Of a stretch of DNA of 64,000 nucleotides, positions 5,882 through 63,461 are shown piece after piece (within the stretch, counting starts at the first letter, position 1; every line of letters starts with the position of its first letter). Made by a program: the position numbers and the translations under genes. The stretch comes from Prevotella sp. ne3005. GTDB taxonomy: Bacteria; Bacteroidota; Bacteroidia; Bacteroidales; Bacteroidaceae. Where the stretch lies: positions 496,001-560,000 of the forward strand of contig NZ_FOCK01000001.1 of NCBI RefSeq assembly GCF_900110085.1, given 5' to 3'. The notes under the pieces were generated by a model that worked only from the letters and a program-made list of their open reading frames with translations, was not told where the DNA came from and did not search any database.

Positions 5882-5888
5882 GGTAGGA

Positions 5889-17248: not shown

Positions 17249-17250
17249 GA

Positions 17251-18045
17251 TTATTCCTGATATAAATCTTTAAACAGGCCCTTTAAGCCAACAGGGTTCA
17301 CCGAAATAATCTCGGTTTCCGGATAATAAAGATTGGCAAACTCCTTCAGATCATTCCATGCCTGTGCCGTTATTCTTGCCCATTCTTCCAGATTATCATC
17401 CCTATCCTTCGCTCTTTTCTTCAATTCATCAACAGTACCCTGAGACTTATCAAAGTGCCCCAACGCAGAACAATCGATTCCGACGAGATAGATACGACGA
17501 GGGTTGGTATATAATATGAATTGCATAGCTTGTAATGACACGCTGTTGAAATTGCCCAAAGGCTGAGATTCTAAATACAAAGCACATTTGCTATATTCAT
17601 GAATATTGATATCCGTCATATATCGACGCACATCCCCCATCTTAAAAATCTCAGACTCTGGTATTTGATATCTGGCGCCTTTATTCTGATCACCTATAAA
17701 CTTGATACAATCTACAGATGCAAAGTCTGAATAGATCTTATCGATTCCCATTTTATCAATTGAAAAAAGATAGTCAAACTTAACTGTTTTCAGCTTACAT
17801 GCGCTATTGAGACCAACATATATACAATTCGGAATTGGTTTAAAGTCCTTGACAGAAGGACCTGCTCCAATCATGACAACATCCCTTCCTGAATAACAAC
17901 CCTTAAATCCTGAAAATGTTTTCTGGTGAAGATTGGAAATGGTCAGTAAACGTTCCACCCTGTCTACAATCGCCTGATCATGCTTGTTGACATAATCAGA
18001 GATATATTGACCACCTAATTTAGTTAATAGCCATTTCATTTTCAT
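17251..18045 (-). CDS. DUF115/GT42-like putative transferase
   Basis: 264 residues. VVMIGAGPSVKDFKPI (about residue 54 onward) is the glycine-rich nucleotide-binding loop seen in DUF115/MptE-like proteins and in GT42 sialyltransferases (compare GNGPSLK). Later NFNSVSLQAMQFI and RRIYLVGIDCSALGHF match the second conserved region (compare SGVYMCAVAIALGY and IYLSGIDFY of Cst-type enzymes). This suggests a nucleotide-using transferase, possibly for a sialic-acid-like sugar, but no CMP-nonulosonate genes are in the window. The start overlaps the flippase gene by 26 nt; a second ATG at 18039 is possible. Confidence 0.6.
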   Translation of the reverse strand: MKMKWLLTKLGGQYISDYVNKHDQAIVDRVERLLTISNLHQKTFSGFKGCYSGRDVVMIGAGPSVKDFKPIPNCIYVGLNSACKLKTVKFDYLFSIDKMGIDKIYSDFASVDCIKFIGDQNKGARYQIPESEIFKMGDVRRYMTDINIHEYSKCALYLESQPLGNFNSVSLQAMQFILYTNPRRIYLVGIDCSALGHFDKSQGTVDELKKRAKDRDDNLEEWARITAQAWNDLKEFANLYYPETEIISVNPVGLKGLFKDLYQE

Positions 18046-19540
18046 CTTTTCTTCTTTTTTTAATAAGCTCTTTCACAAAAATCCAATCAGTCTTGTTCAT
18101 GATAAGCCATAACGACATAAGGAATAGCAATACATATAACGAGCCGAATATCACAATATTCGCAAGATACGATTCTGTATGCGGAACAAAAATACAGATG
18201 CTGAACACGACAGCACCGCCGACAGTACCTGGCATGAGACTATGTACCAGAATACGCCTACTACTTAGTCCGAACAGATGCTTCCAGTAATAATTATAAT
18301 AGAACAGTAGTTGAGACATTGAATAAATCATGAAAGACATAATTGTACCACCAACCTGGAAGTAAGGAATCAGCAACCAACAGGATAACAAGCCCAATAG
18401 GGATGAAAAAGCGGTATTATACATTAAGGGTCTAAGATTGGGCTGAGATAACATTAGAGAAGATATGAAATTGGTATGATTTCCCATAATAAGGAAAAGC
18501 CACAAATAAAGCCAAACCGTCAGATGCTCAAAATCTTCGCCAACATATATCATTAACAAATCATGGCCGATTGTCATGATTCCAAATACCACAAAGGACA
18601 AAAAAATAGAAAGGTATTTAGTACCATCATAAGCAATCCGTTCCAAGGCTTCCTGATTGCCTGATTTCACCACTCTTGAGGCCGTTGGTAACAAAACACC
18701 AAAAAACAAGCCAGGTAGTAAACCCACGACATTGACAATTCCATCAAGTATTCGGTAGTCTGTCACGGACTCAATCTCACCACGCATACCTAGAAAAACC
18801 GGTCTCATATTAAAATATATGAATTGAAAGATCGCAAAAGAGAACATATTAACAGAATAGGGAAGTATCTCCCGAAATATCTTCTGATTAAACTGTGGCC
18901 AAAAGGATATATCTGGTATTTCTCTTCGGATCTTTCTAACCTGTAAAGGGATTGTTATAAATCCTACAGACATAGTCAGAGCCATAAAAGTTTCTATATC
19001 GAACTTAAACAACAATGTGGAAATAAGCACCAATATAAGGAACAATTTGGGTAATATCGCTATCTTCTGAAACCATCCAACATTCTCTGTTGCTCGAATA
19101 ACCTGTTCAATGCATGAGAAATACCAGTTCAGTATAGAGCAAATAATGACAATCCATAAGAGGTGTCTTAATGTAACATTTTGGGCATCAGACACATTGA
19201 ACACGTCTTTTGTATAGACAAGTACGACAGACAACACCAAAACATTCAGAATACCCATCATGCCATAGATGGCAAGACTGGTTTTGAACAGCTCGTTAAC
19301 TTTCCGCCAGTTTTGCTCTTGAATCCATATAGAAAGGAACCGCACATTCGTTGTATTCATTCCGATGTCGGCTAAACCGACACAAACATTCAACGAAGTC
19401 GCCAAACTAACCAGGCCATAATTAGCATTCCCGAAATAACCGATCAGGATAGGAGTCGCAAAGAAACTATATGCAGCTCCAAGTATCGTACAAATCGTAG
19501 ACCAGACTGTACCAGAAAGGATTTTCCCGGACGTACTCAT
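18020..19540 (-). CDS. wzx: Wzx-type oligosaccharide flippase (nearest to the window start)
   Basis: 506 residues with about 12-14 membrane segments. The N-terminus (GKILSGTVWSTICTILGAAYSFFATPILIGYFG) is the standard opening of the MOP-superfamily Wzx group; the C-terminal end is basic and cytoplasmic. It should flip undecaprenyl-diphosphate-linked repeat units to the periplasm. Two more flippases are encoded at 30699-32141 and 48607-50133, which is unusual for a single polysaccharide. The gene is AT-rich, like its neighbours from 13.5 to 20.5 kb. Confidence 0.92.
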   Translation of the reverse strand: MSTSGKILSGTVWSTICTILGAAYSFFATPILIGYFGNANYGLVSLATSLNVCVGLADIGMNTTNVRFLSIWIQEQNWRKVNELFKTSLAIYGMMGILNVLVLSVVLVYTKDVFNVSDAQNVTLRHLLWIVIICSILNWYFSCIEQVIRATENVGWFQKIAILPKLFLILVLISTLLFKFDIETFMALTMSVGFITIPLQVRKIRREIPDISFWPQFNQKIFREILPYSVNMFSFAIFQFIYFNMRPVFLGMRGEIESVTDYRILDGIVNVVGLLPGLFFGVLLPTASRVVKSGNQEALERIAYDGTKYLSIFLSFVVFGIMTIGHDLLMIYVGEDFEHLTVWLYLWLFLIMGNHTNFISSLMLSQPNLRPLMYNTAFSSLLGLLSCWLLIPYFQVGGTIMSFMIYSMSQLLFYYNYYWKHLFGLSSRRILVHSLMPGTVGGAVVFSICIFVPHTESYLANIVIFGSLYVLLFLMSLWLIMNKTDWIFVKELIKKRRKDENEMAIN

Positions 19541-46418: not shown

Positions 46419-47531
46419 CTATCTTTTTATGCAATTGAGTACACGATCTATATCTTGATCAGTTAAAACATGATGGATTGGCAAACATATAACCTCTTCT
46501 GCCATCTTAGTAGCCACAGGCAGATTTTCACGGGAGGCACTTGGTAAACTGCGATATGTCGAGAATTCGGAAATCAAAGGATAAAAATATCTTCTCCCAT
46601 AAACGCCCTGCTTTTGCATTTTAAAGTAAAGATCGTCACGAGTCATACCATACCTCTCTGCATCTACAAATATTGGGAAATAGCCATAATTATGTCTTAC
46701 ACCTACCATGTCGTTCCAATAAGTAATACCATCTACATCTTTCAATTCCTGGCGATATCTGATTGCAACCTGATGACGAGCCTCAATGGCCTTATCAACC
46801 TGTCTTAGATTCAATAGGCCATAAGCACTCCGAATCTCATCCATCTTCGAGTTAATACCAGGAGCGACAACTTCTGTCTCACCAGCAAAACCGAAATTCT
46901 TCAAATAATCTATACGCTGCTTCATCTTTGCGTCATGCATCACCATTGCTCCTCCTTCAATCGTATTATAGACCTTTGTGGCATGGAAACTAAGGGTTGA
47001 AAGATCTCCTGCGTTCAATATACTCTCACCATTAACTTCTACACCAAAAGCATGAGCGGCATCATAAATGACCTTAAGACCATATTTATCGGCAATATCT
47101 TGGATACTCTTAACATCGCATGGTTTTCCATAAACATGGACAGGCATAATAGCCGTAGTCTTGGGTGTAATAGCTGCTTCTATTTTATTGGGATCAATAC
47201 AACCTGTTTTTTCATCAATATCAACAAATACAGGTTTAATTCCATTCCACCACAAAGCATGAGTTGTTGCAACAAAACTATAGGGCGTCGTAATCACCTC
47301 GCCTGTAATACGCAATGCTTGCAAAGCAGTTATTAGCGGCAGCGTGCCATTTGTAAACAAACTAACATACGGAACCTTCAGATAATCAACAAGAGCACTT
47401 TCCAGTTGCTGATGAAAGCTTCCATTGTTGGTAATCCATCGGCTTTTCCATATTTCCTGTAGCATCTCGTTAAAATCTCCCAAATCTGGTAATAACGGAG
47501 AGGTTACAGTTATTTTTTCATTTGTTTCCAT
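46419..47531 (-). CDS. DegT/DnrJ/EryC1 sugar aminotransferase
   Basis: 370 residues from ATG at 47531; a TTG two codons earlier is not needed. TNGTLPLITALQAL (60-73), VIYDAAHAFGV (154-164) and the PLP lysine SFHATKVYNTIEGGAMV (K186) place it in the DegT family, like VioA/DesI-type 4-aminotransferases. It would aminate a keto sugar nucleotide. It should not be an AEP:pyruvate aminotransferase, which belongs to a different PLP branch (class V). It starts 3 nt after the sulfotransferase-like gene. Confidence 0.9.
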   Translation of the reverse strand: METNEKITVTSPLLPDLGDFNEMLQEIWKSRWITNNGSFHQQLESALVDYLKVPYVSLFTNGTLPLITALQALRITGEVITTPYSFVATTHALWWNGIKPVFVDIDEKTGCIDPNKIEAAITPKTTAIMPVHVYGKPCDVKSIQDIADKYGLKVIYDAAHAFGVEVNGESILNAGDLSTLSFHATKVYNTIEGGAMVMHDAKMKQRIDYLKNFGFAGETEVVAPGINSKMDEIRSAYGLLNLRQVDKAIEARHQVAIRYRQELKDVDGITYWNDMVGVRHNYGYFPIFVDAERYGMTRDDLYFKMQKQGVYGRRYFYPLISEFSTYRSLPSASRENLPVATKMAEEVICLPIHHVLTDQDIDRVLNCIKR

Positions 47532-47533
47532 CT

Positions 47534-48610
47534 TCAAAAAATCTTTTTCCTATCTTTTCCTAATGTCTTATAAAGATAAAAGGGGTATAATGATTCTGGC
47601 AACATGGATTCTATTTTCTTAATATCGTCCTTATAATCATCATAAAGATTAAATAGTTGCGTATTATTAATTGACTGCTGAGGACTGAAGAATTCAAATT
47701 TGCGAGCATGGTTCTTTATACCGACAAAAGCCTCTACCTTCTTCTTCGTTTGTTCATACTGATAGATGATATCCTCATAATTGATACTTAAGACAGAATC
47801 ATCATCTTGTAGTTTCGTATCTTGAATGATCTGTTTATAATACAATATAAAGTCATCAACATTCTCCACAGGTATGGGAATTTCAGAATGATATGTTTGT
47901 TTTGCCAGAAGATACATATCTCGTGGATCTCGTCGAACAATCATACATTTAATGGGCTCATTCACATATTTAAAAAACAACTTTGGGCAATCTGGAGGGA
48001 ACAACTGGTCCGTAACCAAAGGATATGACCTATCACTCCTAGAAAAGGACAGCAACTCATCCATGAACTGCTGAGTTCGTTCCAAAAAATGATCCGGATT
48101 GTAGGAGACTGCAATCGTATTCATATTGGGATGAGTTAGGAATGTTGACAAATCACAATGAAAGAGGTTCTTTATATAATGGTTTCCCAACAACAGTTTA
48201 ATAATGTGATTATAGCGCGATAAGATCCTCTCTTTCAGGTCTGGAAACATGATTTCCTCAAAAGTACGTCCTTTAAAACGGAACTGAACTAAATCATCAA
48301 TATAACGTTTACATATTTGATAATATTTCCCATTGAATTGCTCATCATAATGAAGAAAAGGAGTACGGTTCTGCGCATCTACCAGACGAAGAAAACGTTT
48401 TATTGCCGTACTGGAATCACCACAACGACAGTGTTTAAAACATAATTTATGTTCCAGATCATAAATGCCATCCGCTTCCCATAGAATAGTAAACTCCCAA
48501 TCATGTTTTTTCCAGTCCACCGCTAAAAACCTAAGGTCATCATACTCTCTAAGCATATCTTCAAGAGCGCCTGCACCAGACCATCCAAAACCTGTAACAT
48601 CAACTATCAT
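47534..48610 (-). CDS. Sulfotransferase-like protein
   Basis: 358 residues. A P-loop-like DVTGFGWSGAGALEDML (4-20) resembles the 5'-phosphosulfate site of PAPS sulfotransferases, and IKCMIVRRDPRDMYLLAK (about 230-247) resembles the 3'-phosphate site (RxP/S). A late INYEDIIYQYEQTKKKVEAFVG is the conserved helix. The family transfers sulfate from PAPS to sugars. A related kinase-like role is possible. Neighbours are a DegT gene and a flippase. Confidence 0.72.
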   Translation of the reverse strand: MIVDVTGFGWSGAGALEDMLREYDDLRFLAVDWKKHDWEFTILWEADGIYDLEHKLCFKHCRCGDSSTAIKRFLRLVDAQNRTPFLHYDEQFNGKYYQICKRYIDDLVQFRFKGRTFEEIMFPDLKERILSRYNHIIKLLLGNHYIKNLFHCDLSTFLTHPNMNTIAVSYNPDHFLERTQQFMDELLSFSRSDRSYPLVTDQLFPPDCPKLFFKYVNEPIKCMIVRRDPRDMYLLAKQTYHSEIPIPVENVDDFILYYKQIIQDTKLQDDDSVLSINYEDIIYQYEQTKKKVEAFVGIKNHARKFEFFSPQQSINNTQLFNLYDDYKDDIKKIESMLPESLYPFYLYKTLGKDRKKIF

Positions 48611-50133
48611 CTCAGAAATCTGTTTCGTAAAACATTTTTGACGTATATCTTTTCTGACTTATCCAAGCCTGCATAATAAATAACCATCAGAATGGAAAAG
48701 AATGACAGGATTGTTATCACCACAATAAATAACAGAGGATTCATATTGTCATGAAAAGAATGATGCGTAGCCCATAAGGGAACAAGCATTGAAACGAAAA
48801 TAACAATAGAGGGGCGAAAGACGACTTTCGAGAAATAATCAGAAATTGGTAAATGAAGATATTTATGTGCAAAAAAAACACGATTAAAATGGCAAGCAAT
48901 TCCACATATTATCATGATGATAAATACAGATTGTGGTCCATACCCTAGTTTCAAGGCAACATAAGACAACGGAAAATTCATCACAAGAATTGTACCACCT
49001 ATAATCTCAGGATATTTAATCTTTCCTCTTGCTCTTACTGCCATATTCAGAGGGTTTGCACCGGACTCAACAAGATTAAATATCAGTACAAGTTGCAAAA
49101 AAATGGTTGTATAATCAGGAACTTCTACAAGCCAGATCCCCAGTATCTCATCCATACAAAGCATGATGGGTAAAGAAAAAAACCAAAGCAGATACAACGA
49201 GAAACGCGAACTATTATATATAAGCAAAAACAATCTACTATCGTTTCCTACAGCATAGGACTTAGTAATCTGAGGAGATACTGCCGACTGAAAATTATTA
49301 CTAAAACCACTAACTGCACTGGAGACCCTTAATGCGACCCCACGAGCTGCATTTACAACTGGAGAGAAGAAAACATTAAGCATCATATTTTGTGCAGAAG
49401 TATTAATGATATAAGATATGTGTCCTAACAATCCCCAAGACGCAAAGATAGTCATTTCCTTATAAAGGGCATCAAAGCGATAAAACCTAAAAGAACATTC
49501 CTCAAAATGGCTTTTACAATAGATAACATAAACCCCTGTAACAACTACTTGTGCTACTACTATCAAAAAAGAATAGAAAACGAGTCGATCAAAACTGACA
49601 ACAGATATAATATATGCAATAAGTAATTTAAAAATAACATCAATGATAGAGATATATGCAAATGTACCCATACGCTCTCTGGAAATAACCAAAGCATCAA
49701 AAGGGACAGTTATAATGGTAATAAATGCAGCTATCAATGACAACTGGAATGACCAAAAGACTGCTAACTCACGACCTGCGGGGATAACCATCTCATGATA
49801 TATAAACCACAAGCCAAAGACTTCACATATGACTACAATTCCTATTCCTATCAAAGAATGGATAACAAGACTAACATTAAAAATCTTATGTAATTGTAGA
49901 GTATCGTTACGACCTACCGCTATGGATAGATAACGTTGGGTAGAAGAATACATCGCTGTGTTTAAAAAAGAAAACATGGCAGCAACACTCCCCACAACAT
50001 TGTACAATCCAAAATCAGATATCCCCAGATTCTTAAGTATGATTCTGCTTGTATAGAGTGATATGATCATCACCACAAGCATCCTCATATATAATAATAA
50101 GGTATTTTTTGTAAGTCGTGAATTATCACTCAT
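48607..50133 (-). CDS. wzx: Wzx-type flippase (nearest the operon start)
   Basis: 508 residues with 12-14 membrane segments. NTLLLYMRMLVVMIISLYTSRIILKNLGISDFGLYNVVGSVAAMF is the Bacteroidetes Wzx start (LG..DFGLYN). The loop and C-terminus are basic. It follows the phosphonate and LicD genes in the transcript and may carry a phosphonate-bearing unit, which is inference. Two more flippases are encoded downstream. Confidence 0.93.
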   Translation of the reverse strand: MSDNSRLTKNTLLLYMRMLVVMIISLYTSRIILKNLGISDFGLYNVVGSVAAMFSFLNTAMYSSTQRYLSIAVGRNDTLQLHKIFNVSLVIHSLIGIGIVVICEVFGLWFIYHEMVIPAGRELAVFWSFQLSLIAAFITIITVPFDALVISRERMGTFAYISIIDVIFKLLIAYIISVVSFDRLVFYSFLIVVAQVVVTGVYVIYCKSHFEECSFRFYRFDALYKEMTIFASWGLLGHISYIINTSAQNMMLNVFFSPVVNAARGVALRVSSAVSGFSNNFQSAVSPQITKSYAVGNDSRLFLLIYNSSRFSLYLLWFFSLPIMLCMDEILGIWLVEVPDYTTIFLQLVLIFNLVESGANPLNMAVRARGKIKYPEIIGGTILVMNFPLSYVALKLGYGPQSVFIIMIICGIACHFNRVFFAHKYLHLPISDYFSKVVFRPSIVIFVSMLVPLWATHHSFHDNMNPLLFIVVITILSFFSILMVIYYAGLDKSEKIYVKNVLRNRFLR

Positions 50134-50138
50134 TTGTC

Positions 50139-51320
50139 TCAGCCGACAATATTTGGTTTAATTATTTTCTCAATCAACAGGTTAGCTACATCCCAAGCTT
50201 CTCTCAGATGAACTTTCTGGGGCAATACTACATTAAAGCGACTTTTTACTTTACTGATTAATTCATCAGTGTAAATCAAATAACCATCCTCAACGTTCTT
50301 AATGCCATCACAATATATCGAATTTCTGTTCACCTGTTCCATCTCCTCCAAAGAATAACCAGAATAGAAATTGCCCTTAACCTCTTCTCCTCTTCCATCA
50401 ATGAGGTAAGGATAGCCACCAATACGACCTTCAACTCCAGGTGTATGGATCTTTATGACCTTTTTTTCTCGAATAGCGCTGAGAATGCCATAGACGATAT
50501 CAAAGTTGCTGGAAGCATTCATCATGTTACGCTTCTGGTCGGTTGGCATTGGAATTCCACAAGCCTTATAGACTTCCTCATGATTAACATCCAACTCCTT
50601 GCCCTGATACTTGATGCTAAGCAGCAGTTTTACACCTTCCGTATGACCTTCCTTACTGATAACTACGTCATGGAAATGACTGGCAACAAGTGTAATATCG
50701 ATATCATTCAGGTTCTCGATACCATATTTCTCCGCTACGTAAAATTTCATACGAGGAATAAGGTGATTCAGATTGCCACTGCCAAAATCAAAATAGGCCA
50801 TGCCTACACTCTTCAACCATGGAATAACAGCATCTGAATAAGAGGTGTTAATGCTGATAGCATTGCAGCCAACGTTCTCATAAGCCTCCATGATGTTCTT
50901 CCCCAGAAGAACTGACATCGGTGTCCATATACCATAAGCTCTAAGATTTGACCAAGATATTGTTCCATACTTCAAACCAGCAAACAAGCGACTGCTATTC
51001 ACAATAATGTCGGGCTGGATCCGGCGCAGGACAGCCTCGATTGACTTAACGTCCCTGAAATCACAATTGCCCTCAACCACTATCTCACTGCACATCTGCC
51101 GGCGAATAGTTGCTGCAGTACGGATGATATTTACATCCTTCTGCATCTTCTCTGCATTACGACCGACTACAACCAGACGAAGCTGTGGATCATGCAAAGA
51201 TATGAGATAATCAAGCAGATAACAACCCACACTGCCCAATCCAAATATTGCAATTGTTATAATTTCATTATCCTCAATCTTTTGTTTAATCAGATTGAGT
51301 TTTTCATTAATTAATTTCAT
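50139..51320 (-). CDS. Rossmann-fold NAD(P)-binding protein of unknown function
   Basis: 393 residues from ATG at 51320 (preceded by GAGAAA); a GTG at 51371 lies inside the LicD gene. IAIFGLGSVGCYLLDYL is a clear GxGxxG dinucleotide loop, followed by LRLVVVGRNAEKM and, further on, IQPDIIVNSS, as in saccharopine-dehydrogenase-like proteins. The later GSGNLNHLIPRMKFYVAEKYG and PGVEGRIGGYPYLIDG are distinctive. I do not recognise the family. Located next to LicD and the phosphonate genes, it might reduce a phosphonate or sugar carbonyl. No experimental function can be assigned. Confidence 0.65.
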   Translation of the reverse strand: MKLINEKLNLIKQKIEDNEIITIAIFGLGSVGCYLLDYLISLHDPQLRLVVVGRNAEKMQKDVNIIRTAATIRRQMCSEIVVEGNCDFRDVKSIEAVLRRIQPDIIVNSSRLFAGLKYGTISWSNLRAYGIWTPMSVLLGKNIMEAYENVGCNAISINTSYSDAVIPWLKSVGMAYFDFGSGNLNHLIPRMKFYVAEKYGIENLNDIDITLVASHFHDVVISKEGHTEGVKLLLSIKYQGKELDVNHEEVYKACGIPMPTDQKRNMMNASSNFDIVYGILSAIREKKVIKIHTPGVEGRIGGYPYLIDGRGEEVKGNFYSGYSLEEMEQVNRNSIYCDGIKNVEDGYLIYTDELISKVKSRFNVVLPQKVHLREAWDVANLLIEKIIKPNIVG

Positions 51321-51327
51321 TTTTATA

Positions 51328-52179
51328 TTATTTCTCACCAAAACTAATAAACGACACCTGGGCATGTCCACAACGTTTATCCTCAGGAGGCAATTTCATA
51401 TAATCACCAAATTTCCACCTCAAGAATCCGTCGTAATCACGAGAACCATATAAAGGAACACCTTCAAAGATATATTCTGCTCTTTCGGTAATCCACTTCT
51501 TGGTCATGCCGTAACGATCGTTTAAGGGTTTCTTTGTATATTCCCTGCCAGGAGGTATGAATAATAACAATCTAACCCGATTTGTGGAACTATTTCGACT
51601 TCTACTCGTATAGATACTTAGAAAATCATATACGGTTTTTATAGAAATATGCGACAATAGACTAAACCACAGTTTCTTAAAACCGCTGGTATTTTTCTTT
51701 GCGACCTCTGACCATAATATCTTTCTACAACAGAAACAATAAAAATTCTGAATCAACTGCAAACACAAATTATGCGGAATATCATCATAAGGCATGATAT
51801 CAATAAAGATACCTGTCTTACATTTTAAATGCTCTTGCCCTACTCTGATATGCTGGGTGCCTGATCTTCTTAATTTAGCATAACCCCACCTGTAATAAGG
51901 ATCGGTAGTATTATCCTGAAAGAAACATATATCAGGATTCAGATCCTTCATTGCTTCCTTTTTGAATCTTTCATAATCCTCGCGCAACATACAAATGTCT
52001 GCATCATCATCCCATGGGATAAAACCATGATGCCGTACTGCACCAAGCATTGTACCATCAGTAATGACATACGAGATATTATGAAGACGGCAAACCCTAT
52101 CGAACTCTTTTAATAAATCAAGTTCAATAAGTTGCATTTTCCTAAAATCCTCTTTCGAAAGTTCAAGTTCTTTACTCAT
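51328..52179 (-). CDS. licD: LicD family phosphotransferase
   Basis: 283 residues from ATG at 52179, which overlaps the stop of the cytidylyltransferase gene (ATGA). A leading in-frame TTG (52224) lies in that gene. The motif FRKMQLIELDLLKEFDRVC then YVITDGTMLGAVRHHGFIPWDDDADICMLREDYERF is the LicD signature with the WDDDAD metal site. LicD moves phosphocholine from CDP-choline to glycans; homologues move phosphonates (CMP-2-aminoethylphosphonate) in some loci. Beside PepM, Ppd and a LicC-like enzyme, a phosphonate donor is the best inference. Confidence 0.9.
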   Translation of the reverse strand: MSKELELSKEDFRKMQLIELDLLKEFDRVCRLHNISYVITDGTMLGAVRHHGFIPWDDDADICMLREDYERFKKEAMKDLNPDICFFQDNTTDPYYRWGYAKLRRSGTQHIRVGQEHLKCKTGIFIDIMPYDDIPHNLCLQLIQNFYCFCCRKILWSEVAKKNTSGFKKLWFSLLSHISIKTVYDFLSIYTSRSRNSSTNRVRLLLFIPPGREYTKKPLNDRYGMTKKWITERAEYIFEGVPLYGSRDYDGFLRWKFGDYMKLPPEDKRCGHAQVSFISFGEK

Positions 52180-52925
52180 ACAGTCAAATTCATAGCGCCA
52201 CGATAATCTGAGACAGTATTGCAATTATACCATGAAACAACTTTAACTATATCTATTTGTAACAACTTAAGGACACCGAAATACTTCTGTATAATTACCA
52301 AATTAGTGCTCTGTTTTTCCTTAGGAGTAAGGAACTGGCATATCTCGTACACCCTTTGGGGATTTTTGAACTTCCACATCTGACCTGAATTATAGATAGC
52401 AACAAATGGCTCTGGGATTATCAAACATGAATGACTGGTGTCGTAAATGTAGTGAGGATAATTATTGGAATCAAAATAAAGAGCAACCGCCTTACTAGAA
52501 AGAATGGGCTCATTATTCACGGATATAACATCTTTTGAGGATGTAATAATTCTCTTCACACTTTCTGTGTCAAAAAACAAATCACCTTCGATAAAGATAA
52601 TCTCATCTGCTTTGTCGGATACGACCTCGATGCCTTTCAACAAGCTATAGCCGGAACCATAATCATGATAATGATCATTATAAACCAACTTTGTTTTATG
52701 GTTAACATCCTTCATCTCTTGGCGAATAAAGGTTTCAAGATCATCGTATTTGTAACCGCCAACCACTATTATCTCGTCCACAAGATCAAAACACTTGTGC
52801 ACCTGAATATTAAGAAGGGAGTTTGCTGGGGTTCCCTCGTAATAAAGACATTTCAGAACATCCTCTTTTGTGTCTTTATTAAATCGACTGGACATACCAG
52901 CCACTGTAATAATCAGACTCTTCAT
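52176..52925 (-). CDS. LicC-like cytidylyltransferase
   Basis: 249 residues. LIITVAGMSSRFNKDTKEDVLKCLY (4-28) is a nucleotidyltransferase motif like LicC's GLGSRF...K; EIIFIEGDLFFDTESV is the GD metal-binding site. It is shorter and more divergent than sugar-1-phosphate nucleotidyltransferases and sits just before LicD, so it is expected to make a CMP-linked phospho- or phosphono- donor. It could replace the degenerate nucleotidyltransferase-like domain of the PepM fusion. Substrate unproven. Confidence 0.82.
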   Translation of the reverse strand: MKSLIITVAGMSSRFNKDTKEDVLKCLYYEGTPANSLLNIQVHKCFDLVDEIIVVGGYKYDDLETFIRQEMKDVNHKTKLVYNDHYHDYGSGYSLLKGIEVVSDKADEIIFIEGDLFFDTESVKRIITSSKDVISVNNEPILSSKAVALYFDSNNYPHYIYDTSHSCLIIPEPFVAIYNSGQMWKFKNPQRVYEICQFLTPKEKQSTNLVIIQKYFGVLKLLQIDIVKVVSWYNCNTVSDYRGAMNLTV

Positions 52926-53924
52926 TTACCTTTCGATTGAAGCTACACACATCTCTAAGCCCTTATCAAGCGTAATGATAGGGAACCAGTCTGTACGCGT
53001 CCGAATCTTCTCCGTATTCAAGATACGGCGTTCCGGGTCTGAGCTGCGATAACCTTCAAAAATAATATCAGGCTTAGGCAGCCCCATTTTCTCAGCAATC
53101 TTGTTGGTTAGATCAATGATGGTGATTTCCTCGTCTGTAGCGACATTATAGACAGTTCCATCAAGTGCCTTCTCTGAGTTGATCAGTGCCATCACTGATC
53201 GGCAGGAATCAATATTGTGTAAGAATGCACGACGGTTCTTCTTGGAGTTCTCCAACAACTTGACGGAATTCTTTTCCAGTAACTCATTGATAATATGAGG
53301 TATAATATGTTTGGCAAAGCGTTCATGTTTGCTGTAGACATTGGCAAAACGAATAGAACAGCCTTTGATCTTACCTTTATCCACAGCGTCCTTCATAAAG
53401 AACTCGGTCATCAGTTTTCCACAGGCATAACTAGTACGCTGACTATGTTCAGCTGTTGACATCATCAAATAATCACTTTCACGAACACCACCATTCTCGT
53501 TCCAAGACTGCATCGAGTACACCTCTGAGGTAGAGCAGTTAATATAAATATCAGCCTTCACACGGATAGCCTGCTCAAGGAAAGATTTCATAGAAATAAC
53601 ATTGGTCTCCCAAGTGTGTTCCACCTCGTAGAAATGCTCAGTATGAACAACTGCGGCACAATTAATATATACAACTCTATCAAAAGCACCTTTTTCTCGA
53701 ACTACCTCTTCTTCAACAATACGCATCTTAGAAGCATCATTTATATCATATTCATTAAAGGCAAAACGCGAATTATCAAGAAAGTCCCTGATAGTATCAA
53801 TGCTACTAGCGAAGAAATTGTCAAAGCCGATAATACGACTGTCTTTCTCTGATTCCAAAATCTGACGCACAAGTTCGCTACCCGTCATGCCCGATGCGCC
53901 ACTCAATATATATAAACTTTTCAT
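52926..53924 (-). CDS. NAD-dependent sugar epimerase/dehydratase
   Basis: 332 residues. LYILSGASGMTGSELVRQIL carries the GxxGxxG cofactor loop; the catalytic SDR-type YACGKLMTEF has YxxxK, with the preceding INCSTSEVY supplying Ser/Thr. It belongs to the extended short-chain reductase group of sugar-nucleotide epimerases and 4,6-dehydratases. Its position between the phosphoesterase and LicC-like genes suggests modifying a nucleotide sugar, but a phosphonate carbonyl substrate cannot be excluded. Overlap with the phosphoesterase gene is 4 nt. Confidence 0.85.
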   Translation of the reverse strand: MKSLYILSGASGMTGSELVRQILESEKDSRIIGFDNFFASSIDTIRDFLDNSRFAFNEYDINDASKMRIVEEEVVREKGAFDRVVYINCAAVVHTEHFYEVEHTWETNVISMKSFLEQAIRVKADIYINCSTSEVYSMQSWNENGGVRESDYLMMSTAEHSQRTSYACGKLMTEFFMKDAVDKGKIKGCSIRFANVYSKHERFAKHIIPHIINELLEKNSVKLLENSKKNRRAFLHNIDSCRSVMALINSEKALDGTVYNVATDEEITIIDLTNKIAEKMGLPKPDIIFEGYRSSDPERRILNTEKIRTRTDWFPIITLDKGLEMCVASIER

Positions 53925-54652
53925 ATTCCTAATGTTAACCTATCTTTATAAAAAGAATCTACTTTGTCACTAAACAGTTTTTGTTCCTCCTTTACGTCAT
54001 ACCACACTGAGCGATGTTCATAGTTACCTGTTTGGGTATCCAATATACCATACTGGGCATAAGGATTATGATTACGAGGTTGACCAACCGATCCCGGGTT
54101 GATAAATACAGTACGTTTCTTGTTGCGATACGCTTTATTATCAGAAGGGAAAAGAAACTCCACATAATGAGGGACATGGGAATGGCCACTAATAACAAAG
54201 TCATATGGGGCAAAACGTTCATCGTTTATCTTATCAACTCCAAACTTGCCCCAAAATGGATCGTCCAAATTACCATGGATAAAAAGAAAAAATTTTCCTT
54301 CGATGGAGCATTTTTCATAGCCTTGATGATTCATCTTGCCATCCAGATACTCCCTGGATTCCCTTGTCAGAATGGTATTAGTATATTGCAAAACGGCCCG
54401 ACCTCTGTCTGTGGCAAACCGATCAGGACTTCCTCCAAAAATGGAATACTCATGATTACCCCAAAGATTAACACAAACATCCTGAGAAAGATGTTGTACC
54501 ATATCAATGGTCTCATTGGGGCGGGGACCATAGTTGATCAAGTCTCCAAGTATTGCACAAGCGTCAACCTCACCAACAGTCTGAATATCGTTTATGACAG
54601 CCTGAAAGGCAGTTAAATTGGCATGGATGTCTGAAAGAAGAACTATACGCAT
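53921..54652 (-). CDS. Metallophosphoesterase (YfcE/MJ0936-like)
   Basis: 243 residues. The full set of calcineurin-like motifs is present: LSDIHAN, ILGDLINYGP, LWGNHEYS, FIHGN and SGHSHVP, near the usual spacing, with INPGSVGQPR just after. It hydrolyses phosphomono- or diesters using two metal ions. Its place between phosphonopyruvate decarboxylase and a sugar epimerase suggests a cleavage step in the phosphonate or nucleotide-sugar route; no known AEP pathway needs it, so its role is open. Confidence 0.88.
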   Translation of the reverse strand: MRIVLLSDIHANLTAFQAVINDIQTVGEVDACAILGDLINYGPRPNETIDMVQHLSQDVCVNLWGNHEYSIFGGSPDRFATDRGRAVLQYTNTILTRESREYLDGKMNHQGYEKCSIEGKFFLFIHGNLDDPFWGKFGVDKINDERFAPYDFVISGHSHVPHYVEFLFPSDNKAYRNKKRTVFINPGSVGQPRNHNPYAQYGILDTQTGNYEHRSVWYDVKEEQKLFSDKVDSFYKDRLTLGI

Positions 54653-54655
54653 AGT

Positions 54656-55798
54656 TTACTTTTTCAGGAATGCCATTAACGCTTCTTTATTCTGGATGGG
54701 CGTGGTGGTGGGTCTGCCCAGATCCTTGCGATTACCTTTCTTGACTTTGACTTCTAAAAAGACAGGGGCGTCAAAAATTGAAAATTGAAAATTGAAAATT
54801 GAAAGAATCTCCTCCAACTTTTCCTTATTATCAACACTGTAAACAGTTTTGTAGCCTACTGCCTTTGCCACAGCGGGGAGGTCTATCTTGAGTCCGACGG
54901 TGGGCTGGCCTCCTACAGAGTCGTGGGCACCATTGTTGAAGACGACATGAACATAGTTCTTAGGGGCCTTGCTGGCAACGATGGCCATACTGCCCATGTG
55001 CATAATGGTTGCACCATCGCCGTCGAAACACCAGACCCGGCGGTCTGGCTTTGCCAAGGCGATGCCAAGGGCTATCTGAGAGGCGTGCCCCATGGAACCT
55101 ACCGTCAGGAAATCGCGCTCATGACCCTCGTTCTTCACAGTGCGATACTCAAAGAGTTCACGGGAGATCATGCCTGTGGTGCTGACGATACAATCCTTTT
55201 CGCCCAAGGCGGCTGCTACCGTCTGGATAGCCTCCTCTCTACTTAATTGAAAATTGAAGATTGAAGATTGAGAATTTAGTTGATAGTTTTCGAAGGTGTC
55301 TTTCTCAATCACCAGGGCGTAACACTGTCTGGTGGCCTGCATATGGGCTACAGCCTTCCGAATCTGGGCCTCAGCCTTATCCTCTTCTTTGGAGAGAACG
55401 GTATAATCAATACCCATCACATTCAGTAGTCCAGTTGTGACCTTACCTTGTTTCACATGCTGGGGTTCATCATGGACACCGGGTTTGCCACGCCATCCAA
55501 TGACCAGCAACACCGGAATGTTATAGACATCAGGATCCGTCAGAGAAGCCAGGGGGTTGATGATATTACCCTCCCCTGAGTTCTGCATGTAAACAACGGG
55601 AATATGACCAGTTGCCAGATAGTGTCCTGCAGCCAGACCCATAGCGCCACCTTCATTGGCTGCAATAATATTATGGGCAGCATCTGCATGGTCAGTGATG
55701 TAGGCACAAAGATTCTTCAATAAAGAATCAGGTACGCCCGCATAGAAATCAATACCACAGTTGGCTAATGTATCATAAAAGAATTTCGGAGAAATCAT
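54656..55798 (-). CDS. aepY: Phosphonopyruvate decarboxylase
   Basis: 380 residues from ATG at 55798. It is a ThDP-dependent enzyme: catalytic Glu region AANEGGAMGLAAGHYLATG, pyrimidine-binding GVPDSLLKNL, and the Mg-ThDP motif CFDGDGATIMHMGSMAIVASKAPKNYVHVVFNNGAHDS, followed by VGGQPTVG as in AepY/Ppd. It decarboxylates phosphonopyruvate to phosphonoacetaldehyde, pulling the PepM equilibrium. Two heptamer arrays lie inside the gene in frame, giving SSIFNFQLS (about 175-184) and SIFNFQFSIFD (about 331-341), at a domain linker and before the conserved APVFLEVKVKKG. A third heptamer array sits before the start codon. Confidence 0.93.
   Translation of the reverse strand: MISPKFFYDTLANCGIDFYAGVPDSLLKNLCAYITDHADAAHNIIAANEGGAMGLAAGHYLATGHIPVVYMQNSGEGNIINPLASLTDPDVYNIPVLLVIGWRGKPGVHDEPQHVKQGKVTTGLLNVMGIDYTVLSKEEDKAEAQIRKAVAHMQATRQCYALVIEKDTFENYQLNSQSSIFNFQLSREEAIQTVAAALGEKDCIVSTTGMISRELFEYRTVKNEGHERDFLTVGSMGHASQIALGIALAKPDRRVWCFDGDGATIMHMGSMAIVASKAPKNYVHVVFNNGAHDSVGGQPTVGLKIDLPAVAKAVGYKTVYSVDNKEKLEEILSIFNFQFSIFDAPVFLEVKVKKGNRKDLGRPTTTPIQNKEALMAFLKK
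54777..54804. repeat. Intragenic heptamer array (ATTGAAA)4, decarboxylase 3' region
   Basis: Four perfect ATTGAAA units in the plus orientation (28 nt), inside the phosphonopyruvate decarboxylase gene. On the coding strand they supply residues of SIFNFQFSIF, between helix KEKLEEIL and the conserved APVFLEVKV. Confidence 0.92.
55246..55273. repeat. Intragenic heptamer array, decarboxylase linker
   Basis: Four ATTGAA(A/G)-type units (ATTGAAA, ATTGAAG, ATTGAAG, ATTGAGA). They are read in the decarboxylase gene as SQSSIFNFQLS, between the pyrimidine-binding domain and the next domain. The 28-nt length matches the other arrays. Confidence 0.9.
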
Positions 55799-55801
55799 AA
55801 C

Positions 55802-55829
55802 TTTCAATTTTCAACTTTCAATTTTCAAT
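55802..55829. repeat. Heptamer array before the decarboxylase start
   Basis: Four units on the plus strand (TTTCAAT, TTTCAAC, TTTCAAT, TTTCAAT), the reverse orientation of the intragenic copies. They occupy most of the 38-nt gap between pepM and the decarboxylase gene. In the mRNA the last unit runs to 3 nt before the ATG, so it forms the ribosome-binding region. Confidence 0.9.
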
Positions 55830-55836
55830 CTACTAA

Positions 55837-57150
55837 TTACCCTTTCCTTGTTCCCGGAATCAGATTCAGTATCTGTTTGATGGGCATGCAATACTCCTCA
55901 GAGGCCTCCAAACTGCGAGACGTTTCCAGAATACGCTCAGCGCACTTCACCATAGCGGGGTAAGCACTGCGTAGCATGTGGTTAGCATAGATGACGATGT
56001 TGATGCCCCACGCTGCCAACTCCTCTTCCGTAAACTGATTATAAGTGGTAGGTACAGCCACAATAGGCGTATGAGGATCCTTCTCACGGAAACGCAAGCA
56101 GAACTCCTTGATATCCTCACCACTCTTGTTCTTGGAATGGATCATCACGCCATCAGCACCTGCTGCCACATAAGCATGACAACGCTCCAAGGCGTCCTCG
56201 ACAGGCTTTCCTGCTATCAGAGACTCACACCGGGAGATGATCATAAAGTCGCGCGTGATCTGGGCTTCCTTACCGGCCCTGATCTTATTACAGAAGCCCT
56301 CGATGGTATCCTGAGTCTGGATAGCATCTGTTCCAAAGAGAGAATTCTGTTTTAAACCGACCTTGTCCTCAATGATAATGGCTGAGATACCAAGTCGTTC
56401 CAAGGTGCGTACCGTAAACACGAAATGCTCCAGCTTGCCACCCGTATCGCCATCATAAATGACTGGCTTGGTGGTTACTTCAAGGGTATCATTGAGGTCA
56501 TGCAAACGAGTGGTCAGGTCGACAGCCTCAATGTCAGGCTTACCTTTAGAGGTAGAGTCTGTCAAAGAAGAAGCCCACATACCATCGAACTCACGATGCT
56601 GACCATTCACTTCAACAGAGGTATGCTCTACTATTAGACCTGTCAAGCCACTGTGAGACTCCAGAATACGAACAATCGGCTTGGCTGTAATCAGTCTTCG
56701 CAATGAAGCCAGACGGGCCTGTGGAGTAACCCCTAACGAGTCTATCTCATCTTTAAGACTTGAAGAGGATATTCCTTTTGTATATGGAATCTCTATTACC
56801 TCTCCACCAAGTGATTCCATCACCTTATATACTTCGTCACGGATAAATTTCTGAGATCCATACTGCCAGTCATCACCATGAATGATATAGTCAGGCTTGT
56901 ATTTCAGAAGGTTTGGAACATAACTCCATTCATCCTGAGGGACAATGGATGATACGCCCTTGATATTCTCTATAACATTCTTTCGCTGTTCATAAGTTAG
57001 GTAAGGCAATCTGGAATGTGTGGCTATCGCCTTATCTGTGAAGAGACCAATCATCACATTGCCATACTTGGCACCTTGATTGATAATATTGATTAGTCCC
57101 GGATGCATGATATCACCTATCATTCCCAAATATACTGTTTTTGCCATCAT
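55837..57150 (-). CDS. aepX: PEP mutase fused to an N-terminal nucleotidyltransferase-like domain
   Basis: 437 residues. N-domain (1-135): a cytidylyltransferase-type fold, KTVYLGMIGDIMHPGLINIINQ, where the usual HxGH is HPGL (16-19), with GISSSSLKDEI (126-136) as the ISSSxx motif. C-domain (about 150-437): PEP mutase with YDGDTGG (232-238), the diagnostic EDKxxxxxNS motif EDKVGLKQNS (261-270), and DGVMIHSKNK. It converts PEP to phosphonopyruvate, the step that makes the C-P bond. The next gene encodes phosphonopyruvate decarboxylase. The lost second His suggests that the N-domain may not work as a nucleotidyltransferase. An alternative start is Met2 (57147). Confidence 0.93.
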   Translation of the reverse strand: MMAKTVYLGMIGDIMHPGLINIINQGAKYGNVMIGLFTDKAIATHSRLPYLTYEQRKNVIENIKGVSSIVPQDEWSYVPNLLKYKPDYIIHGDDWQYGSQKFIRDEVYKVMESLGGEVIEIPYTKGISSSSLKDEIDSLGVTPQARLASLRRLITAKPIVRILESHSGLTGLIVEHTSVEVNGQHREFDGMWASSLTDSTSKGKPDIEAVDLTTRLHDLNDTLEVTTKPVIYDGDTGGKLEHFVFTVRTLERLGISAIIIEDKVGLKQNSLFGTDAIQTQDTIEGFCNKIRAGKEAQITRDFMIISRCESLIAGKPVEDALERCHAYVAAGADGVMIHSKNKSGEDIKEFCLRFREKDPHTPIVAVPTTYNQFTEEELAAWGINIVIYANHMLRSAYPAMVKCAERILETSRSLEASEEYCMPIKQILNLIPGTRKG

Positions 57151-60959: not shown

Positions 60960-63461
60960 CTAGTAAACGAAGATTTTGAAGTTCTTAATACTGCCGGGGG
61001 CGGAGGATTCGGCACGGGGGAGGTAGTCGAGGGCGGAGATGGTTTGCTCACTGCCGAGGTCGATGACGAGGAGGTGAGGAAGCGGAGACTTCCTCGCAGA
61101 CTGCCAGTAAGTGGACTCCTGGAGATCGAAGACTTTATCACCGGTGAAGTTACCACGATTGATTTCCTCACTGTCAGCATATTCCACCGTCCACGATTCA
61201 CGAGAAAGACGATTCCCATCGGCATCACGGACATAGAGTTCGGCTATGGCAACCTCCGGTTTTTCGCTCTGAGACGATAAAGCCTGAATAGCGACGAATC
61301 TACCACGTTTAGAACCATTAAACCGAATGGTCTGCCAACCATTGCCCGGGGCGAACTGACCTTCGACTACCGGTGTAGCAGAATTAAGGTCTGGACAGTC
61401 GGCAGGATTGTTATGAAGTCGGGATTTTTCAGTATTTAGTTTATCCAACTCCGGATGATTCTGGGAGAAGAGTGAAGGGGAGAGAGACCTTTCGACTTCG
61501 CTCAAGGTGACAGAGGGGGCGCTCGAGGCGGCAGAGGGGGCGCTTGAGGCGGCAGAAGAGGAACGAGGTGCGCGCTGGGAGGGGATCTTCCTGGTGGAGG
61601 TCAGTTTGAGGGCATTGGTGATGGAAGGGGCGTAAGCCTGAAGGGAGGGACCGACGACATCGAGGACGATGATCTCGTTCTTACCTTTTTTCAGCCAACA
61701 ACCGGGGACATAGAGGGTCTGTTGGGGACCAATAGACCAGAATCGGCCAATGGCGTGGCCATTGATATAAACCTGGCCTTTGCCCCAAGCCTCCATGTTG
61801 AGGAAGGTATCACCGGTCTTTTTGAGGGTGAAGTAGCCACGGTAGTAGCCGGAACCTTTGAAGATTGAAGATTGAAAATTAAACATTGAAGAAGAATCAC
61901 GCTGGGCAAGGTCAAGGGCACGGCGGGCGGTGGCGAGGTTGTCGGGGATGGTGAAGATGTTCCAGCGCTTGAGGTTCCAAGAGAGCTCATGACCATCCTG
62001 TTCGGTGGTGAGGGTGACACTCTCGGTGATGCCCTTATAGTCTTTGATGGCACGACCGAAGTTGATACGGCCCATGGCTTCGACAAGGATTCTGAGTTCC
62101 TGCCCTTTCTTCACTGCCGGAAGACGGAGGCTCTTCTCATTGCGCACACGGTCGATCTTTCCGATATAAGCGGTATCGACAAACACCTGGGCATAGTCGT
62201 GACACTCGTTGAGGGTGAGCACACTCTCGGAGGTAATCTCAGGCAACGTGGCAATATAGAGCATCGAGCCCCAGCCCTGACCCATCTCTTCCATGGTGAG
62301 CAGGGGTGAGTTCATCACCAGACTGTCGGCTCCGAGGATGATATCAGCACGCTCCGTAAGTTCGAAGGGAGGGATGGAGATCATCATGGCAGGGGGTGCA
62401 GGAATGGCAGGGAGAGGCTCCTTGCTGTACTTCTGCATCATCTTACGGAGTCTGAAGAATTTCTCCGTGGTACCGCCATACTCGTTGATGGGAGCATCGT
62501 AATCATAGGAGGTGACATCGGGTGCAAAACCGGGGGAGTTGGCTCCGGCCCAGTGGCCAAAGGAGGTGCCTCCGTGGGTCATATAGAGGGAGAAACTGAT
62601 ATTTTTGGAGAGCATCTCTTCGATACCATCGACCATATCCTTGGCTGGGCGGGTCTCGTGGTTGGCACCCCACTTGTCGAACCAGCCACTCCAGAACTCA
62701 GAGCACATCAGCGGGGCATCAGGGCGGAGCTGTTTGAGGCGCTTGAACTGTTCGTCGATGTTAGCGCCTGTACCGAAGTTCATGGTCCAGACGAGGTCGT
62801 CGAGACCGTTGAGTTCGAAGTTGGAGGACCAGTCGCATTGGAAAAGTGTTTGTTTTGCGCCATATAAATGGCGTAAACAATCACGTATCTCAGCGATATA
62901 TGCTTTATCTTCACCGTAGGAGCCATACTCGTTTTCGACCTGGACCATGATGATGGGACCTCCGTTCTGGATGGTCAGAGGGGCGAGTTGTTCGGCTACT
63001 TTCTCTTCGAAGATACGGACACGTTCCATGAAGTAGGGATCCTGTTCACGCAGGCGGATATCCTTCTTTTTGAGGAGCCACCAGGGCAGACCACCCATCT
63101 CCCACTCTGCACAGACATAGGGTCCGGGGCGCACGATGACGTACATACCGTTTTTCTGGGCCAAACGACAGAACTCTGCCACATCGCTGTTGCCAGTAAA
63201 GTCGAACTGACCTTCGCGGGGCTCATGGAGGTTCCAGAAGACATAGATGCAGAGGGTGTTCATGCCCAACGACTTACACATCTGGATACGGTGCTCCCAG
63301 TATGGACGGGGGATGCGGGGGTAGTGCACTTCGGCTGCCTTCACCACGAAAGGCTCACCATTGAGCAGGAAGGTCTTGTGACCTACAGTGAAGTCACCGG
63401 CCTGCATCATCAGTGGAAAAACGAGTAAAAGCGTCGCTAGCAGTAGTCTTACCTTTTTCAT
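60960..63461 (-). CDS. GH35 beta-galactosidase with C-terminal discoidin-like domain
   Basis: 833 residues. Signal peptide 1-21. The GH35 barrel has WNLHEPREGQFDF, RPGPYVCAEWEMGGLPWWL, the acid/base Glu in VQVENEYGSYG (E178) and the nucleophile in LMCSEFWSGWFDKWG (E255). Beta-sandwich domains follow, and a C-terminal F5/8-type domain (about 690-833) likely binds sugar. Two repeat elements are in frame: SSSMFNFQSSIFKG (about 523-535, heptamer) and a Ser/Ala-Pro stretch ending in VTLSEVERS (about 634-660, 21-nt element) in a linker. It would release terminal galactose outside the cytoplasm. Confidence 0.93.
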   Translation of the reverse strand: MKKVRLLLATLLLVFPLMMQAGDFTVGHKTFLLNGEPFVVKAAEVHYPRIPRPYWEHRIQMCKSLGMNTLCIYVFWNLHEPREGQFDFTGNSDVAEFCRLAQKNGMYVIVRPGPYVCAEWEMGGLPWWLLKKKDIRLREQDPYFMERVRIFEEKVAEQLAPLTIQNGGPIIMVQVENEYGSYGEDKAYIAEIRDCLRHLYGAKQTLFQCDWSSNFELNGLDDLVWTMNFGTGANIDEQFKRLKQLRPDAPLMCSEFWSGWFDKWGANHETRPAKDMVDGIEEMLSKNISFSLYMTHGGTSFGHWAGANSPGFAPDVTSYDYDAPINEYGGTTEKFFRLRKMMQKYSKEPLPAIPAPPAMMISIPPFELTERADIILGADSLVMNSPLLTMEEMGQGWGSMLYIATLPEITSESVLTLNECHDYAQVFVDTAYIGKIDRVRNEKSLRLPAVKKGQELRILVEAMGRINFGRAIKDYKGITESVTLTTEQDGHELSWNLKRWNIFTIPDNLATARRALDLAQRDSSSMFNFQSSIFKGSGYYRGYFTLKKTGDTFLNMEAWGKGQVYINGHAIGRFWSIGPQQTLYVPGCWLKKGKNEIIVLDVVGPSLQAYAPSITNALKLTSTRKIPSQRAPRSSSAASSAPSAASSAPSVTLSEVERSLSPSLFSQNHPELDKLNTEKSRLHNNPADCPDLNSATPVVEGQFAPGNGWQTIRFNGSKRGRFVAIQALSSQSEKPEVAIAELYVRDADGNRLSRESWTVEYADSEEINRGNFTGDKVFDLQESTYWQSARKSPLPHLLVIDLGSEQTISALDYLPRAESSAPGSIKNFKIFVY
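61486..61561. repeat. Degenerate 21-nt repeat element in the galactosidase gene
   Basis: A 15-nt lead-in (61486-61500) comes before three diverged 21-nt units (61501, 61522, 61543), the first being close to the perfect units at 63930-64000. The lead-in matches that at 63915-63929 at 12 of 15 positions. It is on the antisense strand of the galactosidase gene, in a linker. Confidence 0.85.
61857..61891. repeat. Heptamer array in the galactosidase gene
   Basis: Five diverged ATTGAAA/G units (TTTGAAG, ATTGAAG, ATTGAAA, ATTAAAC, ATTGAAG). The peptide read is MFNFQSSIFK, similar to those from the decarboxylase arrays. It lies between two beta-domains. Confidence 0.88.

Follow-up and report, generated by a model that had tools for sequence, protein, structure and literature searches.

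We analyzed a 64,000-nucleotide stretch of the Prevotella sp. ne3005 genome (contig NZ_FOCK01000001.1, positions 496,001 to 560,000; termed the window), a genome of 3.57 Mb with 99.88% completeness, and focused on a set of predicted phosphonate genes that it carries. On the minus strand, the order is two genes of the capsule-export type (resembling wza and wzc by eye), followed by pepM, ppd, a metallophosphoesterase gene (MPP), a short-chain dehydrogenase/reductase gene (SDR), a nucleotidyltransferase gene of the DUF6564 family, licD, a gene for an oxidoreductase that we named Ross, and a probable flippase gene. Further capsule-type genes lie beyond the flippase, so that the phosphonate set is embedded in a capsule-type neighborhood. 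An initial annotation had listed the genes from pepM to the flippase, and its gene list and positions proved correct. We consider pepM, ppd, MPP, SDR, DUF6564, and Ross as the six core genes, and a locus built around Ross is called a module below. The features are as follows, with the likely true starts taken from family alignments.

55837 to 57150, minus strand: pepM fusion, a cytidylyltransferase (CyTase)-like domain (amino acids [aa] 4 to 136; PF01467) and a phosphoenolpyruvate (PEP) mutase (aa 150 to 434; PF13714)
57094 to 57102, minus strand: P-G-L of HPGL, the degenerate HxGH motif of the CyTase domain, with the second His replaced by Leu (alignments and motif table)
56341 to 56370, minus strand: EDKVGLKQNS in the translation, the PEP mutase signature (motif as given in the extract of Rice et al. 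2019, PMC6697681)
54656 to 55807, minus strand: ppd, phosphonopyruvate decarboxylase; likely start, 55798
53921 to 54652, minus strand: MPP, calcineurin-like metallophosphoesterase (PF12850)
52926 to 53924, minus strand: SDR of the nucleotide-sugar dehydratase/decarboxylase type (TSE, YxxxK; PF01370)
52176 to 52925, minus strand: DUF6564 nucleotidyltransferase, PntC/LicC-like (PF20202, 352 bits)
51328 to 52224, minus strand: LicD-family transferase, associated with the set and not core; likely start, 52179 (PF04991, 125 bits; cut-off, 22.6)
50139 to 51371, minus strand: Ross, oxidoreductase with a predicted lactate/malate dehydrogenase (LDH/MDH) fold and no Pfam family; likely start, 51320
48607 to 50133, minus strand: probable flippase, part of the capsule context and not core (MatE, 18 bits, E = 0.002, below the cut-off of 25)

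The PEP mutase named in the initial annotation was confirmed by its EDKxxxxxNS signature and by a TIGR02320 score of 405 bits (cut-off, 320), and the adjoining Ppd scored 508 bits with TIGR03297 (cut-off, 312). Family membership thus supports the predicted function of a pepM-ppd stem. The phosphoesterase (PF12850) and the NAD epimerase (PF01370) were also recovered as described. Other descriptions were revised in part: the "LicC-like cytidylyltransferase" is indeed PntC/LicC-like and its assigned family is DUF6564; the "Rossmann protein" has a dehydrogenase-type fold, which we refined to LDH/MDH, and no Pfam match at E 0.01; LicD was verified and the flippase adjoins the set, but neither belongs to the conserved core. 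The N-terminal Fom1-like CyTase domain fused to PepM had been overlooked. It matches structure 5x3d (E = 2.6e-44), which we take to be the Fom1 CyTase.

We found Ross in 5 of 398 genomes of the genus, in six copies, each located beside pepM, ppd, MPP, SDR, and the DUF6564 gene. In a 395-genome sample of the phylum, Ross was matched in its own genome only, apart from one 59-position partial match, and the window's DUF6564 protein was likewise the only strong match of its family (352 bits; next, 36 bits). When 84,980 genomes, one for each species, were scanned with the Ross alignment, 53 loci were returned; the scan was seeded by two short peptide patterns and misses relatives that do not carry them. 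The loci belong to Bacteroidota, Fibrobacter, Lachnospiraceae and other Bacillota, Methanobrevibacter, a Treponema, and a Thermoguttaceae metagenome-assembled genome (MAG), which amounts to five bacterial phyla (Bacteroidota, Fibrobacterota, Bacillota, Spirochaetota, and Planctomycetota) and one archaeal genus. The gene-neighborhood comparison proposed in the initial annotation showed that the six-gene set recurs, since all six genes were detected by tblastn in 41/53 loci. Where more than 6.5 kb was available on both sides of Ross, the set was complete in 32 of 33 loci (the exception, L107, has no SDR), and because of this the arrangement is not a matter of chance. At L082, which starts at a contig end, MPP and the DUF6564 gene are missing between the end of ppd and SDR. 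Gene order varies among the loci, yet MPP, SDR, DUF6564, and Ross stay in the same relative order; in some cases, this run is interrupted by licD or other genes. The recurrent extra neighbors are licD (found in the available DNA of 34 of the 41 complete loci) and sugar genes, as judged by eye in 22 listed groups, and a gene related to the window flippase (36%) lies beside one other module (L058). LicD and the flippase were dropped as core members, as their position and presence vary among loci. In one genome, two module copies lie ~20 kb apart within one surface-polysaccharide region (L055 and L056, G412:C4).

The stem of the module is shared with other phosphonate clusters of the genus. PEP mutase (E 1e-50 or better) was present in 56 of the 398 genomes, at 59 places: 30 with a transaminase for 2-aminoethylphosphonate (AEP), termed AEPT, 16 with an iron-type alcohol dehydrogenase (Fe-ADH), 6 with the module, and 7 without an accepted partner. 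An Fe-ADH at L161 (26%, ~6 kb from its pepM) was left out of this count. Six of the partnerless loci stop at a contig end; the seventh, L180 (G275:C52:1900-18400), has >6 kb on either side of pepM and no recognized ppd, AEPT, Fe-ADH, or Ross. On a PepM tree built by a quick method from 96 of the 99 copies (three were omitted for a stop within the matched span), the module label required 10 changes, at least 4 of them forced by starred branches, versus a shuffled mean of 32, and module and AEPT rows were mixed. At L188, a PepM and a Ppd resembling those of the window (94% and 86%) precede AEPT and PntC. In a nine-row alignment, the Ppd proteins of the module, AEPT, and Fe-ADH types were close to one another, and the idea of Ppd as a module-specific carboligase was rejected on this basis. 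Since AEPT, Fe-ADH, and module loci share the stem, the cassette behind it appears to be exchanged, with a predicted branch point at phosphonoacetaldehyde (PnAA). The initial annotation had raised the conversion of PnAA to another head group; its non-amino form gains support from this joining of one stem, within one genus, to AEPT, Fe-ADH, or the module.

We then looked for the enzymes that define the two other branches. The profile search agreed with the initial annotation that the 64-kb window holds no class V AEPT, and no protein of the genome passed the TIGR03301 cut-off, the only matches (41 and 25 bits) being SufS and SerC, which are also its two best Aminotran_5 matches; the remaining six Aminotran_5 matches score 22 to 36 bits. 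A true AEPT from a sister cluster reached 466 bits (cut-off, 361), so this search would have detected an AEPT. No protein exceeded the cut-off in any of the five module-bearing genomes of the genus, this one included (two are only 82% and 87% complete). The proposal that AepZ is encoded elsewhere in the genome was rejected on the TIGR03301 and Aminotran_5 searches, as far as profile searches allow, and no co-conserved aepZ was found in flanks of up to 10 kb at the 53 loci. At two of these loci, the flanks contain weakly related class V proteins with 23% identity, which score under the cut-off of the family. A cluster-type Fe-ADH was likewise missing from all five genomes (best identity, 25 to 29%, with no match in two), with a search that, in two genomes with Fe-ADH clusters, recovered the query itself (100%) and a 66% match. 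No module locus contains an Fe-ADH save that of L102, which sits beside a second pepM: positions 5105-6403 and 15457-18979 of this Salinivirgaceae contig cover a module and a separate pepM-FeADH-ppd cluster. The latter lies ~4 kb past the last gene of the module and has an intact CyTase motif, so that two phosphonate branches adjoin. As a separate observation, three loci (L107:3810-4910, L036:5276-6331, and L092:13362-14426) have, close to licD or pepM, a class V aminotransferase scoring 147 to 165 bits, below the AEPT cut-off; its best family score is for aspartate-glyoxylate aminotransferase, also below cut-off.

These searches bear on the idea that the product is AEP after all, with a general or unlinked transaminase, such as the DegT enzyme encoded at 46419-47537 of the window, aminating PnAA and the four extra genes serving a separate purpose. 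A DegT protein ~70% identical to that of the window is found near many Fibrobacter modules, and one 82% identical lies near the Fe-ADH cluster of L037. No similar DegT was seen near Bacillota, Methanobrevibacter, or other Bacteroidota modules, the profile scores of the window DegT relate it to sugar aminotransferases, and the AEPT search described above, which was able to detect such an enzyme, was negative in the five genomes. We therefore give AEP very little credence as the product. Independently of this question, the ~70 to 82% identical DegT, frequently accompanied by licD genes, recurs near phosphonate clusters that differ in type and phylum (window:46419-47537; L037:17120-18262; and Fibrobacter loci, among them L070-L076).

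Two nucleotidyltransferases are candidates for activating the phosphonate, namely, the domain fused to PepM and DUF6564. For the fused domain, we scored HxGH and ISST, which we assume to be important motifs of its superfamily. None of the 44 module PepM copies keeps both, and in the Bacteroidota-Fibrobacter types it is the second His of HxGH that is lost (HPGL in the window). Among 19 copies from Fe-ADH loci, 11 keep both motifs and have no PntC-like gene found nearby; the other 8 have HxGH without ISST, and 7 of these have a PntC-like match near or fused. The remaining one, L037, has no PntC-like match detected and lies in a 669-aa frame with an N terminus that looks MobA-like by eye. HxGH is lost in 29/29 readable copies from AEPT loci, with PntC near 28 of them and the last one near a contig end. 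In this table, six loci repeating the same contigs were omitted, a truncated pepM at an AEPT locus (L207) fell under the score limit, the second pepM of L102 was counted as Fe-ADH, and L057, L063, and L067 were counted as modules with Ross >7.5 kb away; L095, with HxGH unreadable, was counted by its missing ISST, and another copy, with ISST unreadable, by its lost His. Beside this, PepM frames of 669 to 677 aa occur in the genus (L037:11343-13349, L041:3222-5228, and others), with an extra N-terminal domain that is PntC-like by match or by eye, and those classified sit with Fe-ADH.

The DUF6564 profile aligned with PntC of the sister clusters over its N-terminal 125 columns (hhalign probability 96%, E = 1.8e-9), and its C-terminal half gave no reliable alignment with PntC. 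Its best PDB match was LicC (E = 0.008), and a single-sequence PDB search with DUF6564 yielded nothing useful. PntC of a sister cluster matches 6pd1 (E = 1.2e-47), identified in the extract of Rice et al. (PMC6697681) as the characterized Treponema denticola PntC. Since motif loss sorts with the cassette, we infer that each cluster has one intact nucleotidyltransferase, which in the module would be DUF6564; it is thus the likely enzyme activating the phosphonate. Two ideas were abandoned: synthesis of CMP-activated 2-hydroxyethylphosphonate (HEP) by the fused Fom1-like domain, first suggested by the 5x3d match, was dropped after the HxGH/ISST table, and the mapping of the amine-binding Glu196 of PntC onto Asn208 of DUF6564 was left unused, as the global alignment gives it no support.

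An AlphaFold model of Ross (AF2, 39 sequences) had a mean pLDDT of 92.4 and a pTM of 0.92. It resembles LDH/MDH by Foldseek (best E, 4.4e-10) and by VIA-align (Z 22.2, rmsd 3.6, 294 aligned, 14% identity), with identities of 11 to 17% among the fold matches listed; the listed matches did not include GH4 or other LDH-fold enzymes, which does not imply their exclusion. A single-sequence PDB search with Ross gave nothing useful. Ross carries GLGSVG, and its second strand ends with GRN, features that by the usual rules would point to NADPH as the cofactor. R191 is invariant in the 39 module members and absent from distant homologues, and H216 is kept even in the latter; judged by eye, these may correspond to the substrate and catalytic residues of LDH. 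Ross is thus probably an NADPH-dependent reductase of the LDH/MDH fold. The distant homologues (15 records, ~25 to 27% identity) come mostly from rhizobial and Planktothrix plasmids. Six that we aligned share with Ross the glycine motif, N159, D164, GxGN, and H216, and their neighborhoods contain alanine racemase, HAD, transport, SDR, and other genes. Megablast against plasmids produced nothing useful, and no relative was found in viral contigs.

The SDR is nearest, among solved structures, to dTDP-glucose 4,6-dehydratase and then to UDP-glucuronate decarboxylase. It keeps T-S-E and YxxxK, with an acidic residue after the second strand, and is probably redox-neutral with bound NAD. Of its 553 plasmid matches, the ten listed were sugar enzymes. 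The MPP profile matched 3rqz (6.7e-27) and 3qfm (8.4e-18), the latter presumably the Ap4A hydrolase SapH. The type of SDR and the capsule-type genes around the set would fit a scheme in which MPP, SDR, DUF6564, and Ross make a nucleotide sugar, as acceptor or companion of the phosphonate, with housekeeping enzymes processing PnAA. We consider this scheme unlikely, as pepM accompanied Ross at each of the 33 loci with enough flanking DNA, from six phyla, and the DUF6564 profile aligns with PntC, an enzyme acting on a phosphonate. Our searches for the set relied on Ross; of MPP, SDR, and DUF6564, only the last was searched on its own, in the phylum sample.

We propose, as the reading that we find rather likely, that MPP, SDR, DUF6564, and Ross form a third head-group cassette on the shared phosphonate stem, with a non-amino product other than AEP. 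PepM would make phosphonopyruvate and Ppd would make PnAA. The cassette would stand in for AEPT and PntC, which lead to CMP-AEP, or for Fe-ADH and CyTase, which are expected to lead to CMP-HEP. Ross and the nucleotide-sugar-type SDR would convert PnAA to a hydroxylated, non-amino phosphonate, DUF6564 would couple it to CMP, and MPP would split a phosphoester or phosphoanhydride along the route. LicD, where present, may transfer the phosphonate onto a capsule-type glycan. The reactions after PnAA are predicted from families and folds, and attachment to a glycan is suggested by LicD and the capsule-type neighborhood. We regard it as about an even call that the branch product is a CMP-activated phosphonate other than AEP and HEP, made by a cassette that has spread through bacteria of the rumen and gut and through methanogenic archaea for surface decoration. 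In the sister clusters, two activities are enough to form and activate AEP or HEP, and the four genes therefore suggest, by analogy, a further-modified phosphonate with a head group more elaborate than HEP.

Plain HEP as the product is a doubtful, though possible, alternative, in which Ross would be a non-orthologous PnAA reductase, DUF6564 would make CMP-HEP, and SDR and MPP would be accessory. The dehydrogenase fold of Ross fits it, as does the absence of a cluster-type Fe-ADH from all five module genomes searched; furthermore, 5x3d is the nearest structure to the fused domain, and the Fom1 domain acts on HEP according to the extract of Rice et al. (PMC6697681). Against it, the Fe-ADH clusters need one reductase and one nucleotidyltransferase, which leaves the retention of SDR and MPP unexplained, each of the 44 module copies of the Fom1-like domain lacks one signature motif or more, and the module and the separate Fe-ADH cluster ~4 kb apart in L102 suggest two products. 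The "phosphonoglycan of new structure" of the initial annotation is thus supported as to a non-amino head group and not as to newness, given that HEP may be made by a new route.

Several observations weigh against the third-cassette reading. The modeled link of Ross to LDH/MDH holds at the level of the fold only: no LDH family was among 25/26 Pfam families listed for the 39 Ross members, and hhalign of Ross with 12 MDH-locus rows, one of which (L215) is probably in a wrong frame, was not significant (probability 1%, E = 0.05). No annotated phosphonate-making gene lies in the six distant-homologue neighborhoods, and the wider Ross family is therefore not phosphonate-specific. Fifteen Bacillota and Methanobrevibacter module copies keep HxGH (HDGH or HEGH) and miss ISST, so that a dead CyTase in these modules would follow from the loss of this one motif. 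Beyond LicC, the PDB matches of DUF6564 are at chance level (PntC second, 0.63; others, 0.9). L107 does without SDR, 7 of the 41 complete loci, some of them short, have no LicD match in the available DNA, and most loci are MAG contigs, with L066, L085, and L105 carrying isolate-type names. Finally, the reactions of the cassette enzymes are all predictions.

The module resembles the AepX-AepY-AepZ/PntC systems (AEP of the Bacteroides fragilis capsule and PntC of T. denticola) in its pepM-ppd stem, its LicC/PntC-type nucleotidyltransferase, a nearby LicD, and its capsule-type setting; it differs in having no AEPT, in DUF6564 replacing PntC, and in the added MPP, SDR, and LDH/MDH-fold protein. 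With the Fom1-type branch, where Fe-ADH converts PnAA to HEP and the PepM-fused CyTase forms CMP-HEP, it shares the same type of PepM fusion, whereas the module genomes have no cluster-type Fe-ADH and at least one CyTase motif is missing in 44/44 module PepM copies. Ross is like the LDH/MDH superfamily in fold, with one His and GxGN kept in its distant homologues, but has neither an LDH match among the Pfam families listed nor a significant hhalign match. The lic phosphocholine pathway, with CTP-dependent activation followed by LicD transfer, offers the logic proposed here, except that the donor would be a PepM-derived phosphonate instead of phosphocholine and that LicD is not a fixed member.

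According to the extract of Rice et al. 2019 (PMC6697681), most bacterial phosphonate capacity serves cell-surface tailoring, and the tailoring steps past PEP mutase remain enigmatic. The excerpted Methanobrevibacter millerae SM9 paper (PMC4987999) describes in strain ZA-10 a four-gene cluster with PEP mutase and phosphonopyruvate decarboxylase, suggested to modify cell-wall polysaccharides, and the excerpt of PMC10035134 describes a Methanocorpusculum vombati cluster of PEP mutase, decarboxylase, and the phosphonoacetaldehyde-reductase-like adh1. In the literature searchable here, none of the titles and abstracts listed concerned this neighborhood, with the proviso that branch-point inventories elsewhere may list such clusters as unknowns, and DUF6564 was not mentioned; within that literature, a third PnAA branch is undescribed. 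The four-gene cassette comes with a natural control, as AEPT or Fe-ADH sister clusters exist in the same genus, some with PepM >90% identical, and the head-group question is therefore directly testable. In addition, Ross becomes a candidate for a new oxidoreductase family, and DUF6564 gains a candidate function. A surface chemistry common to rumen bacteria and methanogens may bear on recognition by phages, hosts, and protozoa.

Two minor observations concern a relative of Ross and the window itself. At four loci on rhizobial plasmids (L220, L221, L222, and L225), an alanine racemase and a TIGR01459 HAD hydrolase lie beside the distant Ross homologue, with a DMT transporter also present in three of the four; this uncharacterized locus is perhaps catabolic. 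In the window, a 7-base repeat (AATTTTC-like) occurs where pepM meets ppd and also within the frames of ppd and beta-galactosidase (54774-54803, 55243-55272, 55799-55830, and 61861-61890), with 8 overlapping matches (≤2 mismatches) versus 0.01 expected, and the alignment indicates that it makes the window Ppd longer than most of its relatives.

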